A DNA stretch of 40,499 nucleotides from a virus. A program made the translations under genes and the position numbers. Location of the stretch: positions 1-40,499 of IMG/VR virus record IMGVR_UViG_3300037421_000060; one strand, given 5' to 3'. Of this stretch, positions 10,247 through 39,396 are shown in pieces. Every line of letters begins with the position of its first letter. Within the stretch, counting starts at the first letter, position 1. The notes beneath the pieces were generated by a model that was not told where the DNA came from, searched no databases, and was given only the letters and a program-made list of their open reading frames with translations.

Positions 10247-10735
10247 TCACGGCCATGCGGAGTCTGCGATTGCAAACCATCCGTCATAAGTTAACTCGGA
10301 AACATCCTGCTCTTTTTCGTCGATAATATGGGAAGCGCCGGTCTGCATTAGCTGCTCTAGGATTTGCAAATAAGCGAGCTGCGCCGTGATTACATTGGCT
10401 GAGGCCGTGAGATTATAGCGAATGAGCCCACGAATAACGCCGTGTTGATTGTCATTCGTCGGGCGCGTCGTTACAATCCGCACGGCAAGGGTGAACTTAA
10501 AGGCGTTTGGCACTTCGCGGTAAGTCCCAGTTGAAAGCCCCTTGCGCTGGCTAAGCGCAGGCCCGACAAGGCATTCCAATTCAACCCTTGGCGTGTTATC
10601 CGTTGTTGCGCTGCGCGTGGTCAAAACTTGGCAGGTTATCGGGATGGCAGCTAACGCAGTCGTTAAGACCGTTGCCCATGCAGTCTCAAGCTGCGTCTCA
10701 AAATCGTAAAGCGTTTGGTAATTTGGGGCGGGCAT
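10247..10735 (-). CDS. Tail terminator / completion protein
   Basis: A 162-aa protein. It begins with a helix (YQTLYDFETQLETAWATVL), then a beta core including TPRVELECLVG and FKFTLAVRIVTTR, a helical middle (ITAQLAYLQILEQLMQ), and an end of the form ELTYDGWFAIADSAWP. The Asp/Trp-rich close is typical of phage tail terminator or completion proteins. Its location between the neck gene and the tail tube gene is as expected. It would cap the tail tube and join it to the head. Confidence 0.6.
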   Translation of the reverse strand: MPAPNYQTLYDFETQLETAWATVLTTALAAIPITCQVLTTRSATTDNTPRVELECLVGPALSQRKGLSTGTYREVPNAFKFTLAVRIVTTRPTNDNQHGVIRGLIRYNLTASANVITAQLAYLQILEQLMQTGASHIIDEKEQDVSELTYDGWFAIADSAWP

Positions 10736-17188: not shown

Positions 17189-18802
17189 TCAACTCGGCTT
17201 TTGACGTATAGCGAACGGATCGAGGTCTTTTTCAGCGGACGCCTGTTGTTGCTCGCCCGCCTCGTCGCCCGCTTGGGTCGTCGAAGAATCCGCCGCCTTG
17301 AGGCCCGCGCCGGGATTGGGAAAGATTTTGCGCAGGAAGGGAATGATTAGAGCCTTATCGACGCCGGTTTTCTTGGAAATTTCGTCGGCATCTTGGAACA
17401 CGGCCAAGGCATATTCCTTGTTTTGCTGACGGATGCGCTCCAAGTCCTCGCCGTGCTCGGCGGCGTAGTCGTGCGCGGAGCCAAGGCCAGCCTCAATAAT
17501 TTTAATATCGGTCTCGTTTTCATTCTTATAATCAACCGTGACGCTGCGGCCCATCTGCCACGATCCTTGAAAACGGGCCGGGGAGCTGACTAGCGGCCCG
17601 AATTGATCGAGATTTAGAAACCCTGTATAGATACCTTTTTGGATAAGGCGATTTTTTAGCGGGGTAAGGAGCTTTAGCTTGAGCCATTTCTTATCATGGT
17701 CAAAAGTGCGCTCTGCCTTGTTCGCATAAAAACGCTGCACGACGCCCCCGGTTTGGCTGCGGTAGCAAAATTCCAGAGGCAGCTTGCACCCGATTGCTAT
17801 ATCGCGTTTCAGCTCCTCTAGAATGGCCGTGAATTGTGTATTAGGAAAGTCATTGGGGTAATTCATGACGCCCTCGCCGAGCTTAAAGAAACTTTGCGTT
17901 ACGCCATCCACGACGACGGAGAACGGCTGCGGCTCCCCGGTGGATGAAACGGGTTGGGCGGCATAGCCATTGCCGCGCGGCCTGCCCTGCTCATTAGTGA
18001 CATACGGGAGCTGCGCGGAACGCCATTTGATATTCATCTTGGAGAAATCCAAGATTTGTTTAATATCAAATGCATGCTCGATGGAGTTTTTGAAAACCGT
18101 TACCCCATGATATTGCTCGAAGCGGAACGGCTGGTAATAATGAATAAAATAATTTGCCTCAATCCGTTCCTGAAATTCGTAGCTGTTTAGCTTGGGGATG
18201 CGGTAATATAAATCATAGAACAAAGGCGCGCTCGTCGCCTCGTCCACGATAATCCCGTTATAGTTATTCGGGCCGATATTCGCGCCGATAAGCGGATTGC
18301 CAATGCGATCCCCGGAGAGGCAAACTAGCTTGAGGGTGTCGCCAGTGTCGATAATCTTGAAGCCGCATTCCCCATCGCGCTTCATGGAACGCAAGGCGAG
18401 CCGGGCAATGTAATTCAAATCGAGCCGGTTGGAAAAATCCACCGTCTCAAATTGCGCTTGCAGGTAGTCATTGATTGCCCGGTCTGCATCCGGGTTGCCT
18501 GTCGCGGCGCGATAGGTCAAATCCCCCACAACGTAGGTTTCGAAATCGTTTAGGATGCCGTCGAAGAATTGGAAATCCTCTTCCATCTGCCGGGCCGCGC
18601 GAATCAAAACAATGCGCTCGAAGGCTTGCCGGAAATCCTCCGGCGTTGAAAGGACGGCGGGGTAAGGCCGGTTGGTCGTCGGCTGCGCGCCCGCGTAAAG
18701 CTTCATGCGCTCGCCTTCGGCCTGCATTGCCTGTTGTGCAAAGTGCCGGTCAACTTTCCACTGCCCGGTCACAAGCTTGTAAACTACTTCGGGAAAGTTC
18801 AC
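17189..18802 (-). CDS. Portal protein, lambda family
   Basis: A 537-aa protein matching lambda-type portals. There is an early helical region (FDGILNDFETYVVGDLTYRA), the FYDLYYR/FIHYYQPFRFEQYHGV part, then ELKRDIAIGCKLPLEFCYRS plus FYANKAER, which resembles the conserved wing/stem core, and a C-terminal tail rich in Gln, Ala and Asp. It forms the dodecameric ring through which DNA enters the head. It overlaps the gpW-like gene by 4 bases. Length is typical. Confidence 0.85.
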   Translation of the reverse strand: MNFPEVVYKLVTGQWKVDRHFAQQAMQAEGERMKLYAGAQPTTNRPYPAVLSTPEDFRQAFERIVLIRAARQMEEDFQFFDGILNDFETYVVGDLTYRAATGNPDADRAINDYLQAQFETVDFSNRLDLNYIARLALRSMKRDGECGFKIIDTGDTLKLVCLSGDRIGNPLIGANIGPNNYNGIIVDEATSAPLFYDLYYRIPKLNSYEFQERIEANYFIHYYQPFRFEQYHGVTVFKNSIEHAFDIKQILDFSKMNIKWRSAQLPYVTNEQGRPRGNGYAAQPVSSTGEPQPFSVVVDGVTQSFFKLGEGVMNYPNDFPNTQFTAILEELKRDIAIGCKLPLEFCYRSQTGGVVQRFYANKAERTFDHDKKWLKLKLLTPLKNRLIQKGIYTGFLNLDQFGPLVSSPARFQGSWQMGRSVTVDYKNENETDIKIIEAGLGSAHDYAAEHGEDLERIRQQNKEYALAVFQDADEISKKTGVDKALIIPFLRKIFPNPGAGLKAADSSTTQAGDEAGEQQQASAEKDLDPFAIRQKPS

Positions 18803-19092
18803 GGCGGGCCTGCCCCAAAGGTAGAGAGCGAAGGAATGAACGAGCCTTGGCTGAAGTCTGGAGCCGCCGCCGTGGTCGTGTTGGAAAGCCCAAGCTCAGC
18901 GGTCAGGCCGTTGATTAGCCGGATTAGGTCGTCGATTGTCATAACGTCGAGGCCGTAACTCTGCGCGGCGCTAGACCCGGAGCGCACGCGGCCTGTCGTG
19001 ATCCGCAAAAGATACTCGGCTTGCGCCGCCGTTAACATATTGGTTAATTGCGTCGGCGAAAAACTACCGTAATCCAAGACAGGCGAGGCCAT
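18799..19092 (-). CDS. gpW-like head-tail joining protein
   Basis: A 97-aa protein from the ATG at 19092 (an ATG at 19113 would add seven residues). The helix-turn pattern LTNMLTAAQAEYLLRITTGR, then VMTIDDLIRLINGLTAELGL, resembles lambda gpW and related small joiners that precede the portal gene. gpW binds the portal channel and is required before tails attach. The C-terminal 25 residues are disordered-looking (Thr/Ala/Ser/Gly). Confidence 0.7.
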   Translation of the reverse strand: MASPVLDYGSFSPTQLTNMLTAAQAEYLLRITTGRVRSGSSAAQSYGLDVMTIDDLIRLINGLTAELGLSNTTTAAAPDFSQGSFIPSLSTFGAGPP

Positions 19093-24239: not shown

Positions 24240-24808
24240 GCCGTTGCCCTCTTTACTGAATCAACCAAGGATTCCTGCGCCGCCAAAGCCCCCGTCCGAA
24301 ACCGCTTGGCAATCCGATCCCGCGCCGCCGCATTCAACTGCGCGCACTCAATCGCATTTTTCCCGACGTAACGGCTCGGCAAAACCAGTTCATACTCTTG
24401 CCGGATTAGGTCGTCGATTTCCTGCACCAAGGGAATGAGCGTCCGGCCCACGTCTTCCTTGGCGATAAATTGGCCCTTGCGTAATTCCAACTCGAATTGC
24501 TTTGAAGAAACCTCTAGTTCCATTTTGCGCTCGCGGAGTTGTTGAGCATTCGCCCCGGCAACCGCCCACTGAATATTGTTTTCAACGAAACGCTTCGTCT
24601 GCTCGAAATTGTAATGCCGCTTGTGATCCGGCAACGGCGCGCCGTCTTTGCGCAAAACGATCTTTAACGAGTTGTACGCAATGCCAAGCTTGCGCGCAAT
24701 GCGTATGGCGCTTTCACGTTCGGGTGCCTCCGGTGCCTGTGTAGCCTTTACCGGCCCCGCCGCGTCCTTGGCCCCTTCCTGCGCGTTTATAGCGGCAACG
24801 GTTGACAT
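24236..24808 (-). CDS. Terminase small subunit, Nu1-like
   Basis: A 190-aa protein. Residues about 30-65 hold a helix-turn-helix-like segment (ESAIRIARKLGIAYNSLKIV). The following helices are typical of the gpNu1 family: ERKMELEVSSKQFELELRKG, then KEDVGRTLIPLVQEIDDLI. It would bind the packaging site and load TerL. Located 3 genes before TerL. The N-terminal 30 residues look disordered. Confidence 0.7.
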   Translation of the reverse strand: MSTVAAINAQEGAKDAAGPVKATQAPEAPERESAIRIARKLGIAYNSLKIVLRKDGAPLPDHKRHYNFEQTKRFVENNIQWAVAGANAQQLRERKMELEVSSKQFELELRKGQFIAKEDVGRTLIPLVQEIDDLIRQEYELVLPSRYVGKNAIECAQLNAAARDRIAKRFRTGALAAQESLVDSVKRATA

Positions 24809-35068: not shown

Positions 35069-35335
35069 ATGAACTGGAAAACCTACCCAATGGGAGCCGC
35101 CTGCGCTGAACGCATGGAGGCGCGCGGGCTCAAGGCCCATCTTGACCACGCCGTTAATTTAGACACTGGCAAAACACTTTGCGGCGTTAAGACCGATTCG
35201 CTTTGCATGGACGAGAGCCTTGCAACTACCAAGCTGCCGGATTGCCCAAGGTGTTGCGCGAAAATTCGGGAATCTATTTGCGAGGCTCGCGGCTTTGGGA
35301 ATCGTTGGTGCGCGACGAAAATTAAGGCGGAATAA
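35069..35335 (+). CDS. Cysteine-rich small protein
   Basis: An 88-aa protein from ATG 35069; the frame is open back to 35015, with in-frame ATGs there and at 35021, so up to 106 aa is possible. Motif TLCGVKTDS then CPRCCAK matches the TlCG...CprC pattern of short zinc-binding phage proteins. It ends on an ATG overlap with the next gene. Confidence 0.5.
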   Translation: MNWKTYPMGAACAERMEARGLKAHLDHAVNLDTGKTLCGVKTDSLCMDESLATTKLPDCPRCCAKIRESICEARGFGNRWCATKIKAE

Positions 35336-35709
35336 TGTCCACGCTCGGCCTCTTCGATTTAGTTAACTCGTGGCAGCAACAACCCGCCCGCCGCCGTGCT
35401 TTGCTGCCTAATGCGCCATTAGACACAATGGAATTTACAAGCCATTACGGGATTGACGGCCTCGCCAAGCTCGAAGGCGACGGCATTATTTTTATCGGAC
35501 TTTTTGCACGCGATCCCGGAACGGGGCAATTGCGCGCGTTTATAAAACAGGCTAAAAATTGCTTCCCTGTTATTTGGGTAACTGCGTTTTTCAATGATGA
35601 CTTGCCGACTGTTTTGCTCCGGTATGGTTTTAAGCCGTGCAAGATTCAAAGCGAGACTCTTGACGGGAAACCGTGCGAACAAGCGGCAATGGTTTGGAAA
35701 AACGTCTAG
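35335..35709 (+). CDS. GNAT-acetyltransferase-like phage protein
   Basis: A 124-aa protein. GTGQLRAFIKQAKNCFPVIW, then FFNDDLPTVLLRYGFKPCKI, matches a phage family of acetyltransferase-like proteins in which a G.G..r.f......~.v.....N..L...l.R.GF motif stands for the acetyl-CoA-binding and C-terminal parts. Substrate unknown. It is the last gene before the long non-coding stretch. Confidence 0.5.
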   Translation: MSTLGLFDLVNSWQQQPARRRALLPNAPLDTMEFTSHYGIDGLAKLEGDGIIFIGLFARDPGTGQLRAFIKQAKNCFPVIWVTAFFNDDLPTVLLRYGFKPCKIQSETLDGKPCEQAAMVWKNV

Positions 35710-35885
35710 GTTGCTCATGGCGTAAAATAAGAAAGCTCCGGGGCACAATGCCCCCTAACCCCAAGCGGGATTAGGGGAATTGCGGTTGAACTTGGCGCAA
35801 AATTAAGCGTCCGGTATGCAATAAAATCGTCCGTTCTTTGGCGCGGGTGGTATGACTGGTTTTTCCGCTCCGAACGATTTAGCCC

Positions 35886-35914
35886 CGGCCTGTTGACAGG
35901 CCGCGTCGTTTTAA
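35886..35914 (+). terminator. Hairpin with T-rich tail
   Basis: CGGCCTG, TTGA tetraloop, CAGGCCG (35886-35903), then CGTCGTTTTAA. Moderately terminator-like on the plus strand, and could end the small-gene operon about 180 bases after its last stop. Equally it may be one stem of the structured region. Confidence 0.4.
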
Positions 35915-36033
35915 TCTAGCGCCCCGGAATTGCACCGCCGCGCTAAAACCGTCCCGGCGAGCCTTGGCGGGGGTTTCCCGTTGCGAAAGGCGGCGCAGGT
36001 ATCCTTGGATTGCCCCTAGGCGACTACGGGCCA

Positions 36034-36070
36034 AGAAAAAGCCCGGAGCGTGGTGAGCACACTCCGGGCT
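36034..36070 (-). terminator. Strong hairpin followed by TTTTT on the minus strand
   Basis: A 9-bp perfect stem (36040-36048 with 36062-36070) and, on the minus strand, TTTTTC directly after it. This is a good terminator for a leftward transcript, but no minus-strand gene lies to the right within this module. It may end a leftward non-coding transcript, or the hairpin may belong to a plus-strand RNA. Confidence 0.5.
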
Positions 36071-36239
36071 AATCCTTGCTATGCCGCTGTGGGTTTGCCG
36101 CCCACAAAGGGAAAGGGGATTGTCCGAGGCTTGCTCACCAAGCTACCCCAAGGAAATTGTCCACAATCCGGCCCGGCAAGCACGAATTTGCTAAAAATGG
36201 CGATTTATACCTAGCAACGCTTTAAAATCTCATAGGAGG

Positions 36240-36266
36240 GGCACTTGTCCAAGGTGGTCAAGTGCC
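36240..36266. repeat. 8-bp inverted repeat; candidate attP core or terminator
   Basis: GGCACTTG (36240-36247) and CAAGTGCC (36259-36266) are perfectly inverted around 11 bases. With one mismatch the arms extend to 11 bp (GGCACTTGTCC / GGTCAAGTGCC) around AAGGT. Two imperfect arms with a short spacer in about 27 bp is the layout of tyrosine recombinase core sites, and the integrase gene starts 560 bases away. GCATTTTACG after it would also allow a weak terminator. Confidence 0.35.
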
Positions 36267-36440
36267 GCATTTTACGGGTTTGGCTCTGAAATTCGGTTTT
36301 CATAGGGGAAAACGGGTATTTTGTGGCAAAGGTCGGCAACGTCAAAATCCCGATTTTTGCCATTTTGGGCTTGATTCTTAGCAAAGTTTAAGCAACTTAG
36401 AGGGCATCGAAAGCAATGCCGCTGCCGATAAATCCAAAAA

Positions 36441-36821
36441 ATGAAAATCGTTAAAACTGAGATTATGCCGGAAAATTATAACCCTTCGCTCGCTAGCGGA
36501 GATTTCAATCGTTGCGAACACCTACGCCTTGAGGTTGAGGCCGGGAAGTGGCAAACGATTTCTTGCAAGCTGCCCAATGGCAAATTTGTGACATTCGCTT
36601 TTGTGCCGGGCAAAGGCAATGAAATCGAATGCGTCGATTTGCACACGACAGTTGGGACGCCAATGCCCCGCCCTGACAATGACGAAAGGACTTTTTTCCC
36701 TCAACAGCTTATCGGCTTTGCGCTCGGCACCGATACGTTCGACACGAGGAAGGGCAAAAAAACAACCTCGCTCGCAACGCTGCTTTTAGGCTCCCAGCAC
36801 TATCAACCCAAAACTGCCTAA
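36441..36821 (+). CDS. Protein of unknown function before the integrase
   Basis: A 126-aa beta-rich protein (GKWQTISCKLPNGKFVTFAF, then FVPGKGNEIECVDLHT), perhaps a beta barrel. It is 4 bases from the integrase start, so the two are probably co-transcribed. No family recognised. Confidence 0.55.
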   Translation: MKIVKTEIMPENYNPSLASGDFNRCEHLRLEVEAGKWQTISCKLPNGKFVTFAFVPGKGNEIECVDLHTTVGTPMPRPDNDERTFFPQQLIGFALGTDTFDTRKGKKTTSLATLLLGSQHYQPKTA

Positions 36822-36825
36822 TCCC

Positions 36826-38058
36826 ATGAGCCGCACCGCCGCAAATTTCCTCACCGTCAAGCCGCTCCCCAACGGGCGGCTTTTGCTGACGGGTTCCATT
36901 GACGTGCTGAACGCTGAAACAGGCGTTTGGCAGCATAAGCAAATTCGGGAACGTTTCCGGGAGGCTTCGCTTGCAGACGCCCGCAAGAATGAACTCGAAG
37001 CTGCTGCCATTGCGCACAACTTGGCCACGTTTAACGCAGAGCGCACGGTGGCAACGTCCTTAACCCCGGAACAGCTCCGGGACGCGGAAGCGGCCTTTGC
37101 CGCGCGCGGCTCGCGTCCTTGGAGCCTGCTTGAGTGCGTCCAAGCTGCCGGGACGATCCTAGGCGGCGCGAAGCCCATCCTTTGCGTGGATGCGGTCAGG
37201 GACTACATTGCCGACTGCGAAAAAGTCGGGTTTAGCAAGGTGTCAATCGCGTTCAAGAAAGCCCGGTTTGCGAGCTTCCTAAAATCAACCAAGGCGCAAT
37301 ACCTGAGCGAAATTTCCTCCGATGATGTTGACCGCTACGTTTACGTTGACGGGCTCGCCGCCGTGTCGAAGGAAAACCGCGCCAAGCAACTCAAGGCGTT
37401 TTTCAAATGGTGCATGACGCGCAAGACCCCGTTAATTGGTCGCAGCCCTTGCACGATAGACATGGAGGCAATGAAACACCAAAAGCAGAAAGAGGCGAAG
37501 CCTGTCTCCGTGCTTTTCCCTGCGGATTGCGCCGCGCTTTTCCGGGCCGCGTCAACTATCGACGCCGGGAGCCATCTGCCGATTGTGATCTTTGGCCTAT
37601 TCGCTTTTATGCGGATGACTGAGGTGCGCAAGCTCACGCGCGAGGACATTGCCCGCGATGGTCGCAAGGCAAATAGCGTGTTCGTCGCCCCAAATAAACG
37701 CGGCTGCAAATACCGTTACGCCGAGGTGCCCGCGAATATGATGCCCGCTTTGCAGCATTGCCTTGCCTCCGGTATTATCCCGAAGGAAGGCGCGCTCTAT
37801 TTCTCCCCGAAGATTTGGAGCCGTATCCGCACCGAGGCCGGTTTGTCGAAGAAATGGGACGCCCATATCATGCGGCATTCCGGCTGCTCTTATTTTGAGT
37901 CCATGCATCACGATCTAAAGGAGGGCAACCGGCAAGCCGGTCATTCCGAGGACGTGGCCTTTGAAAATTACCTCTATGACTTTTCGGAAAAACAAGCCAA
38001 AGAGTTTTACGCAATCACCCTTTCGCCCGCCCTGCTCAACCCTGCCAAGGTCGCCTAA
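36826..38058 (+). CDS. int: Tyrosine recombinase (integrase)
   Basis: A 410-aa integrase for phage insertion and excision. An N-terminal arm-binding part is followed by a SAM-like core-binding domain (about 120-205) and a catalytic domain with the residues of the family: R263 in FMRMTEV, K291 in PNKRG, H347 and R350 in HIMRHSG, H373 in AGHS, and the nucleophile Y382 in NYLY. The end, AKEFYAITLSPALL, resembles the A..FW.I.P close of integrases from Verrucomicrobia-like bacteria. attP should be nearby, most likely in the non-coding 35.7-36.4 kb stretch. Confidence 0.85.
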   Translation: MSRTAANFLTVKPLPNGRLLLTGSIDVLNAETGVWQHKQIRERFREASLADARKNELEAAAIAHNLATFNAERTVATSLTPEQLRDAEAAFAARGSRPWSLLECVQAAGTILGGAKPILCVDAVRDYIADCEKVGFSKVSIAFKKARFASFLKSTKAQYLSEISSDDVDRYVYVDGLAAVSKENRAKQLKAFFKWCMTRKTPLIGRSPCTIDMEAMKHQKQKEAKPVSVLFPADCAALFRAASTIDAGSHLPIVIFGLFAFMRMTEVRKLTREDIARDGRKANSVFVAPNKRGCKYRYAEVPANMMPALQHCLASGIIPKEGALYFSPKIWSRIRTEAGLSKKWDAHIMRHSGCSYFESMHHDLKEGNRQAGHSEDVAFENYLYDFSEKQAKEFYAITLSPALLNPAKVA

Positions 38059-38059
38059 C

Positions 38060-38545
38060 ATGAACACAAAGTTAATCCTCCTCCTCGCGCTATCCTTCGC
38101 CCGCGCTTTCGGCGAAGTCCCGGCGGAATGGATTTTGATCGACGGAATTAACGCGCGCAATAAAGGCGTCGTCATGCAAATGCTCCCCGTCCCGATTCAT
38201 TGCTCTAGCCGTCCCTTGCTTAACGCGGAGCTGACGGCGCGCGAATGGAACAAGGCCCACCCCGCCGAAAAAGAGTTTGTCGTGCACACCTCCGGTGTCT
38301 CAATGTTGCCGCTTTATCCTGTAACCGGCGTTTATTTTGTGACGCGCAAAATTCCTTACGGCGATATTAAACCCGGCATGGTCGTCACCTATTGCGCGCA
38401 ATTCGCGCACCGCAATGTTTCGCACATTGTGCTTTGCCCTTCGTCGCTTGGTTATTTTGTGCAGGGCTTGAATAATCCTTGGCGCGATCCTGAGTGTGTG
38501 ACGCCCGATAATTATCTAGGCGTTAGTGTCGAGGCTTTCGATTGA
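38060..38545 (+). CDS. Exported S24/S26 peptidase-like protein
   Basis: A 161-aa protein from ATG 38060, one base after the integrase stop. The N-terminus is a signal peptide (MNTKLILLLALSFARAFG). The C-terminal 80 residues resemble LexA/signal-peptidase folds: SGVSMLPLY with catalytic Ser, VYFVTRKIPYGDIKPGMVVT, then AHRNVSHIVL and GLNNPWRD...NYLGV. No Lys stands where bacterial S26 uses it. HRNVSH plus the NNPWRD segment looks like the Ser-His dyad of SipW/archaeal-type signal peptidases. It may be a processing or sensing protease; no HTH is attached, so it is not a CI-type repressor. Confidence 0.5.
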   Translation: MNTKLILLLALSFARAFGEVPAEWILIDGINARNKGVVMQMLPVPIHCSSRPLLNAELTAREWNKAHPAEKEFVVHTSGVSMLPLYPVTGVYFVTRKIPYGDIKPGMVVTYCAQFAHRNVSHIVLCPSSLGYFVQGLNNPWRDPECVTPDNYLGVSVEAFD

Positions 38546-38601: not shown

Positions 38602-39150
38602 ATGCCTAATCAAACATTGCTAGAAGCCATCATAAATCAACGATCCAGCCTCACTAAAAGGCTGTTGGCAGTTCACCAAGAGATTGACGCAATCTTTAGC
38701 GGCAGTTTTCTCAGCCTTAAAACTGATGAATATATTAGCGCACCAGCCATTAATCCAAAGGCTAAGCGTTGGGCCGATGCGCTAGATAAACCGGCGACTT
38801 TGCCGCCCAAGCGCCGCCAGAATATCACCCCGGCCCATCGCGCTAAAGTGATTCGCCTGATTAACAAGGGCACGTTGACGCCGGGGCAAATCATCAAAAA
38901 AATGGATATTTCTCCCGCGACTTATTACGTTATCCAACGCAAGGCCCGGCAAGAGGCTCCTAAGAAACGGCGCGGCAACAAAGGATTAGCAACGCCCGTC
39001 CGCCGGACGGTGGAAAAGTTCTTACGCAAGGGGAAGCTGACTGAAGCCGCAATCGCCCAACTCGCTGCTGTTTCCCGTTCAACGGTAACGCGCATCAAGA
39101 GCGAATTAATTAAACACGATCAAAAGACCGCCGGGAGCGAAACGCAGTAA
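38602..39150 (+). CDS. Regulator with two helix-turn-helix motifs
   Basis: A 182-aa protein. Helical residues 1-35 may dimerise. Two resolvase-type HTH motifs follow, LTPGQIIKKMDISPATYYVI (about 92-111) and LTEAAIAQLAAVSRSTVTRI (about 146-165), linked by a basic segment (KKRRGNKG). With inverted repeats just upstream of its gene, it may regulate itself or the lysis/lysogeny choice. A terminator follows at 39181. Confidence 0.6.
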   Translation: MPNQTLLEAIINQRSSLTKRLLAVHQEIDAIFSGSFLSLKTDEYISAPAINPKAKRWADALDKPATLPPKRRQNITPAHRAKVIRLINKGTLTPGQIIKKMDISPATYYVIQRKARQEAPKKRRGNKGLATPVRRTVEKFLRKGKLTEAAIAQLAAVSRSTVTRIKSELIKHDQKTAGSETQ

Positions 39151-39153
39151 GCT

Positions 39154-39396
39154 CTATCTCCGGTTATATTTGATCTTTTCGCCCGCCGTAAAAGGCGGGC
39201 TTTTTCGTGTCATCTTGTCAAAGGCCGCGCGGTCAAATTTCTCCCCAAGGAACTTGTGCCGTTCCAGCATTTTTCTAAGGGCTTCATTGACCAATCTGGA
39301 AACAGACCAGCCGAAAGCGGAAGATTTGGCCATGACCTCAAGGGCGGCGGATACGTCCGAATCAATGCAGAATTTTTTCTTGGTCTTTTCGGCCAT
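39154..39396 (-). CDS. Ribbon-helix-helix regulator (CopG/Arc-like)
   Basis: An 80-aa protein from ATG 39396. KKKFCIDSDVSAALEVMAK, then GWSVSRLVNEALRKMLE, is a beta strand followed by two helices with the SVSRLVNEAL turn of CopG-type RHH proteins. It is on the opposite strand from its neighbours and stands back to back with a second RHH gene at 39536. This is the layout of a lysogeny switch. Its 3' end contains the plus-strand terminator of the HTH regulator gene. Confidence 0.65.
   Translation of the reverse strand: MAEKTKKKFCIDSDVSAALEVMAKSSAFGWSVSRLVNEALRKMLERHKFLGEKFDRAAFDKMTRKSPPFTAGEKIKYNRR
39181..39206 (+). terminator. Rho-independent terminator inside a convergent gene
   Basis: GCCCGCC (39181-39187), GTAAAA, GGCGGGC (39194-39200), then TTTTTCG. 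It would end transcripts from the HTH gene (stop 39150) but lies in the coding part (last ten codons) of the opposite-strand RHH gene, so coding and terminator sequences overlap. Confidence 0.8.

Follow-up and report, generated by a model that had tools for sequence, protein, structure and literature searches.

What occupies the 731 bases upstream of the integrase operon of this phage? The 40,499-base record analysed here (the window) contains a gap at 35710..36440, bounded by ORF 35335–35709 and ORF 36441–36821, which the original prediction described as lacking a plausible gene and proposed to be an undescribed structured RNA, possibly containing a kissing loop. The gap is real, since by the ORF list and a codon model no frame in it has a good coding score; its ORFs of at least 25 codons score below the phage's own genes, one of them, 36211–36384 (-), being ambiguous.

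The phage and the setting of the gap

A 127-base direct repeat is present at both ends of the record, indicating that it is a circularly assembled phage genome. A leftward block from about 26.9 to 3.6 kb contains the large terminase, portal, major capsid and tail genes. A rightward block from about 27 to 35.7 kb contains small early genes, and beyond it come the gap, an ORF of 126 codons without family match (36441..36821, +) and a tyrosine recombinase (integrase) gene at 36826..38058 (+), which matches the PHROG integrase family at E 5e-15 and PF00589 only below the cut-off. Directly after int is a 161-codon ORF, 38060–38545 (+), and there is no large gap on that side; its motif SMLPLYPVTG is by eye like S24/signal-peptidase-type proteins, and it has no Pfam or phage match. 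An exact 20-base repeat (18918–18937 = 24400–24419) has both copies within the structural gene block, and 24264–24283 matches 35989–36008, inside the gap, at 19 of 20 bases.

The only near full-length terminase match among the phage records is that of Verrucomicrobia phage P8625, terminase relatives are found in 30 of the 388 Verrucomicrobiota genomes searched, and distant relatives of the integrase, 21–28% identical, are also found in Verrucomicrobiota genomes. These matches make a host from the Verrucomicrobiota likely, and this temperate phage is probably one of that group. The integrase had no match at E 1e-20 in 384 genomes, and the terminase had none in genome contigs. (Verrucomicrobiota genomes were obtained as search centres via a 16S pattern, which was the sole use of that pattern.) Two IMG/VR phages of 33.3 and 40.3 kb (L010–L011 and L012–L014) have the packaging, capsid and tail module in common with the window, with structural proteins roughly 25–62% identical to those of the window. 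The early and integrase block of the window is absent from both, and their own early blocks differ from it, with helicases, an Erf-like protein and exonuclease VIII. The window and these two relatives are thus a mosaic group of Verrucomicrobiota-type phages. The overlap of an identical 6.7-kb contig with the window is confined to the terminase area.

The main hairpin as a predicted leftward terminator

The hairpins named in the original prediction are found where it placed them, at 36040–36070 (loop GTGAG), 36129–36143 (loop CTCAC), 35740–35754 and 35752–35777, but it had assumed the + strand, on which the stems of 36040–36070 and 35752–35777 are mismatched, whereas on the - strand both are unbroken. 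Read on the + strand, 36040–36070 has a C.A mismatch in its stem; read on the - strand this becomes a G.U pair, and 13 unbroken pairs (9 of them G-C, 36070–36040, loop CTCAC) lead straight into TTTTTCTT. The feature at 36034..36070 (-) therefore has the build of an intrinsic terminator, a GC-rich hairpin with a T-run immediately after it, and it has the most pairs among the terminator-like sites in both our own scan of the window and a second scan of 26–40.5 kb. The 11-pair hairpin at 35752..35777 (-), which has CCC in common with 35740–35754, likewise contains a C.A mismatch on the + strand and is unbroken, with one G.U pair, on the - strand. Elsewhere in the window a second clear intrinsic terminator, rightward, is found at 39181–39200 (+; GCCCGCC-GGCGGGC then TTTTT), about 30 bases beyond the end of ORF 38602–39150.

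Searches of Verrucomicrobiota genome DNA gave matches to the main hairpin in three genomes (L160, L172 and L183), and in all three the match is a hairpin plus T-run lying about 20–40 bases beyond a stop codon in the same orientation as in the phage. The stem GCCCGGAG/CTCCGGGC is the same in host and phage, with an A-run before it on the + strand and a T-run after it on the - strand. The host loops differ from the phage loop, and unlike its counterparts the phage hairpin has no recognisable gene immediately before it. From their translations, we read the genes upstream of the host hairpins as those for a pilin and a proton-pyrophosphatase-like protein and as an ORF of 439 codons whose end is porin-like. 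The E-values of these searches are marginal, so the weight of the three cases comes from their position and orientation. Because these counterparts lie past gene ends, there is good evidence that 36070–36034 is a host-style intrinsic terminator, predicted to act on leftward transcripts. A polymerase arriving from the right would make the 13-pair hairpin and U-run at 36070–36034 and then fall off, and such leftward termination would keep antisense transcription out of the rightward early genes. The transcription reaching the terminator would start within 36080–36440 or come from the host chromosome after integration.

No leftward gene that clearly ends at this terminator was found in the window. 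A small leftward gene at 36384–36211 (-), 57 codons long with a TTG start and ended by the 36070–36034 terminator, is improbable. It is the sole gap frame with a positive codon score (0.09), and the terminator is downstream of it on the same strand, but that score is reached by 8% of non-coding frames and is as low in only 5.5% of coding stretches, the frame has neither a family match nor a phage match, and 140 bases separate it from the terminator.

The kissing loop and other RNA readings

The proposed kissing interaction would join the terminator loop to that of a 5-pair hairpin at 36129..36143. The nine-base complement of 36051–36059 with 36132–36140 is exact, as originally reported, and can be extended to 12 of 13 bases, but it is not unusual: shuffled versions of the gap contain a longest distant complement of 9.2 bases on average, and 78% of them reach at least 9 bases. 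Pairs of hairpins whose 5-base loops are complementary, with the same imperfect stem tolerated as in the original prediction, turn up once or more in 7.6% of shuffles and in 7 (6.7%) of the 105 other windows of this phage that were compared. Five-base loops are short for a full loop-loop helix, and both loops here are five bases long. The kissing pair is thus about at chance level and has no other support.

The hairpin content of the gap is modestly enriched: it contains 10 hairpins versus 4.7 in dinucleotide shuffles (P 0.029; P 0.048 in a second count), and among the other windows of this phage 3.8% hold as many. As the count is somewhat above chance, more functional elements may exist in the gap. 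Folding of the full 731 bases gives a z of -2.4 (only 20 shuffles), and folding of 36027–36175 gives a z of -3.7. When 100-base windows on both strands were compared with shuffles in a sliding scan, the signal in the gap was confined to three inverted repeats (near 35750, 36050 and 36250) and fell to about background between them, and the local values were alike on the + and - strands. A local, strand-symmetric signal is the pattern of DNA inverted repeats; more would be expected of a continuous large RNA. The strongest local folding in the scan is on the - strand within coding sequence, at 18001–18100 near the portal gene (z -7.3) and at 10401–10500 in ORF 10247–10735 (z -6.7), and both exceed any value in the gap.

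The GOLLD and ROOL large RNAs are similar in length to the gap, are found in phage and contain kissing loops (PMC12286853). The gap is like them in being non-coding, of similar length and in a phage, and unlike them in having no covariance-model match (E up to 5), no tRNA gene nearby (the window contains none), no dense global fold and a kissing pair that is at chance. GOLLD and ROOL are often found beside phage tRNA genes, a common feature of these RNAs and not a required one. A search with Rfam covariance models gave nothing usable, either at the gathering threshold or with E-values of up to 5, and no family came near its gathering score. DNA similarity of the gap to 50,697 phage records was nil, the integrase, neighbouring ORFs and hairpin patterns had no match in viral contigs, and no homologue of the gap was found in viral contigs, phage records, two distant sister phages or about 1,100 overlapping host-genome searches (several searches excluded records very near the window). 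A large structured RNA on the + strand, as first proposed, has in its favor the length and non-coding character of the gap, the hairpin excess (P ~0.03) and the two z values for the whole region and for 36027–36175, but with structure that is local only, a main stem that is better on the - strand, a kissing pair at chance, no Rfam match and no homologues, we consider it very unlikely.

A replication origin, originally offered as an alternative, is equally unlikely. The large non-coding gap and a cumulative GC skew maximum close by, at 36656, are consistent with one, but the skew is shallow, and neither iterons nor other repeated words of 7 to 10 bases stand out from shuffles.

A different RNA could be made from the other strand. 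A short leftward non-coding RNA from about 36311 to 36034, in which 36144–36132 pairs with the terminator stem and loop as an antiterminator or kissing partner, has in its favor the terminator on the - strand, a promoter-like site at 36345–36318 (-), the 12 of 13 complement and a fold z of -2.3 for 36311–36034. Promoter matches in the gap are not above the number expected by chance, the complement is at chance and nothing conserved was found, and we regard such an RNA as unlikely, albeit less so than the small gene, the large RNA or the origin. Its more specific form, a leftward phage RNA of about 280 nt whose upstream hairpin kisses or competes with its own terminator loop and so switches termination, is distinctly improbable; if it were true, antisense transcription across the early genes would be switched along with termination.

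A probable control region before the integrase operon

Because the strongest hairpin is best read as a terminator on the opposite strand and the kissing loop is about at chance level, an ordinary control region is more likely than a new RNA. The gap is probably an ordinary non-coding control region, with a predicted leftward terminator, that precedes the integrase operon in this temperate phage of Verrucomicrobiota type. The AT-richer part of the gap, 36150–36440, includes a 27-base dyad at 36240..36266, GGCACTTGTCCA-AGG-TGGTCAAGTGCC (z -4.6; single copy in the phage), a possible operator or hairpin, and this part and the dyad may hold the promoter and regulator site of the operon that runs from 36441 through the integrase gene. 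A weak rightward terminator-like site, a 7-pair hairpin followed by CGTCGTTTTAAT at 35886..35915 (+), was found in the terminator scans and is possibly the end of the early operon, although sites of this kind are to be expected by chance.

In many prophages the integrase promoter and the attachment region overlap (PMC2951348), and since the gap is the only sizeable one close to int, attP is perhaps somewhere within 35710–36440. The gap remains plausible as a control region or as attP, the latter another alternative in the original prediction, but comparison of gap DNA with host genomes, in about 1,100 genome searches of overlapping sets, revealed neither an attB nor an integrated copy. Exact words of 7 to 10 bases showed no excess of repeated arm-type sites over shuffles, a count that could miss degenerate ones. 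Candidate attB matches at 35834–35871 (Ogt-like), 35920–35965 (pdxA-like), 36399–36429 (cobT-like, transketolase-like and others) and 36330–36355 fall in unrelated genes (the names are our own reading of the translations); with E about 0.001 per genome, hundreds of genomes searched and such scattered genes, they are attributed to chance. As in prophage regions of the KplE1 intS type (PMC2951348), a non-coding segment is found upstream of a tyrosine integrase operon, but unlike in the KplE1 intS region the core, arm sites and promoter were not identified in the gap, and an extra ORF precedes int.

The importance of this locus goes little beyond annotation, and a transcript or homologues would be needed to give it more interest. 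It does illustrate how reading a hairpin from the wrong strand, when a loop complement arises by chance as well, can suggest a new RNA. For a poorly known phage group, it also adds a predicted terminator in the style of the host and a region that probably controls integration.
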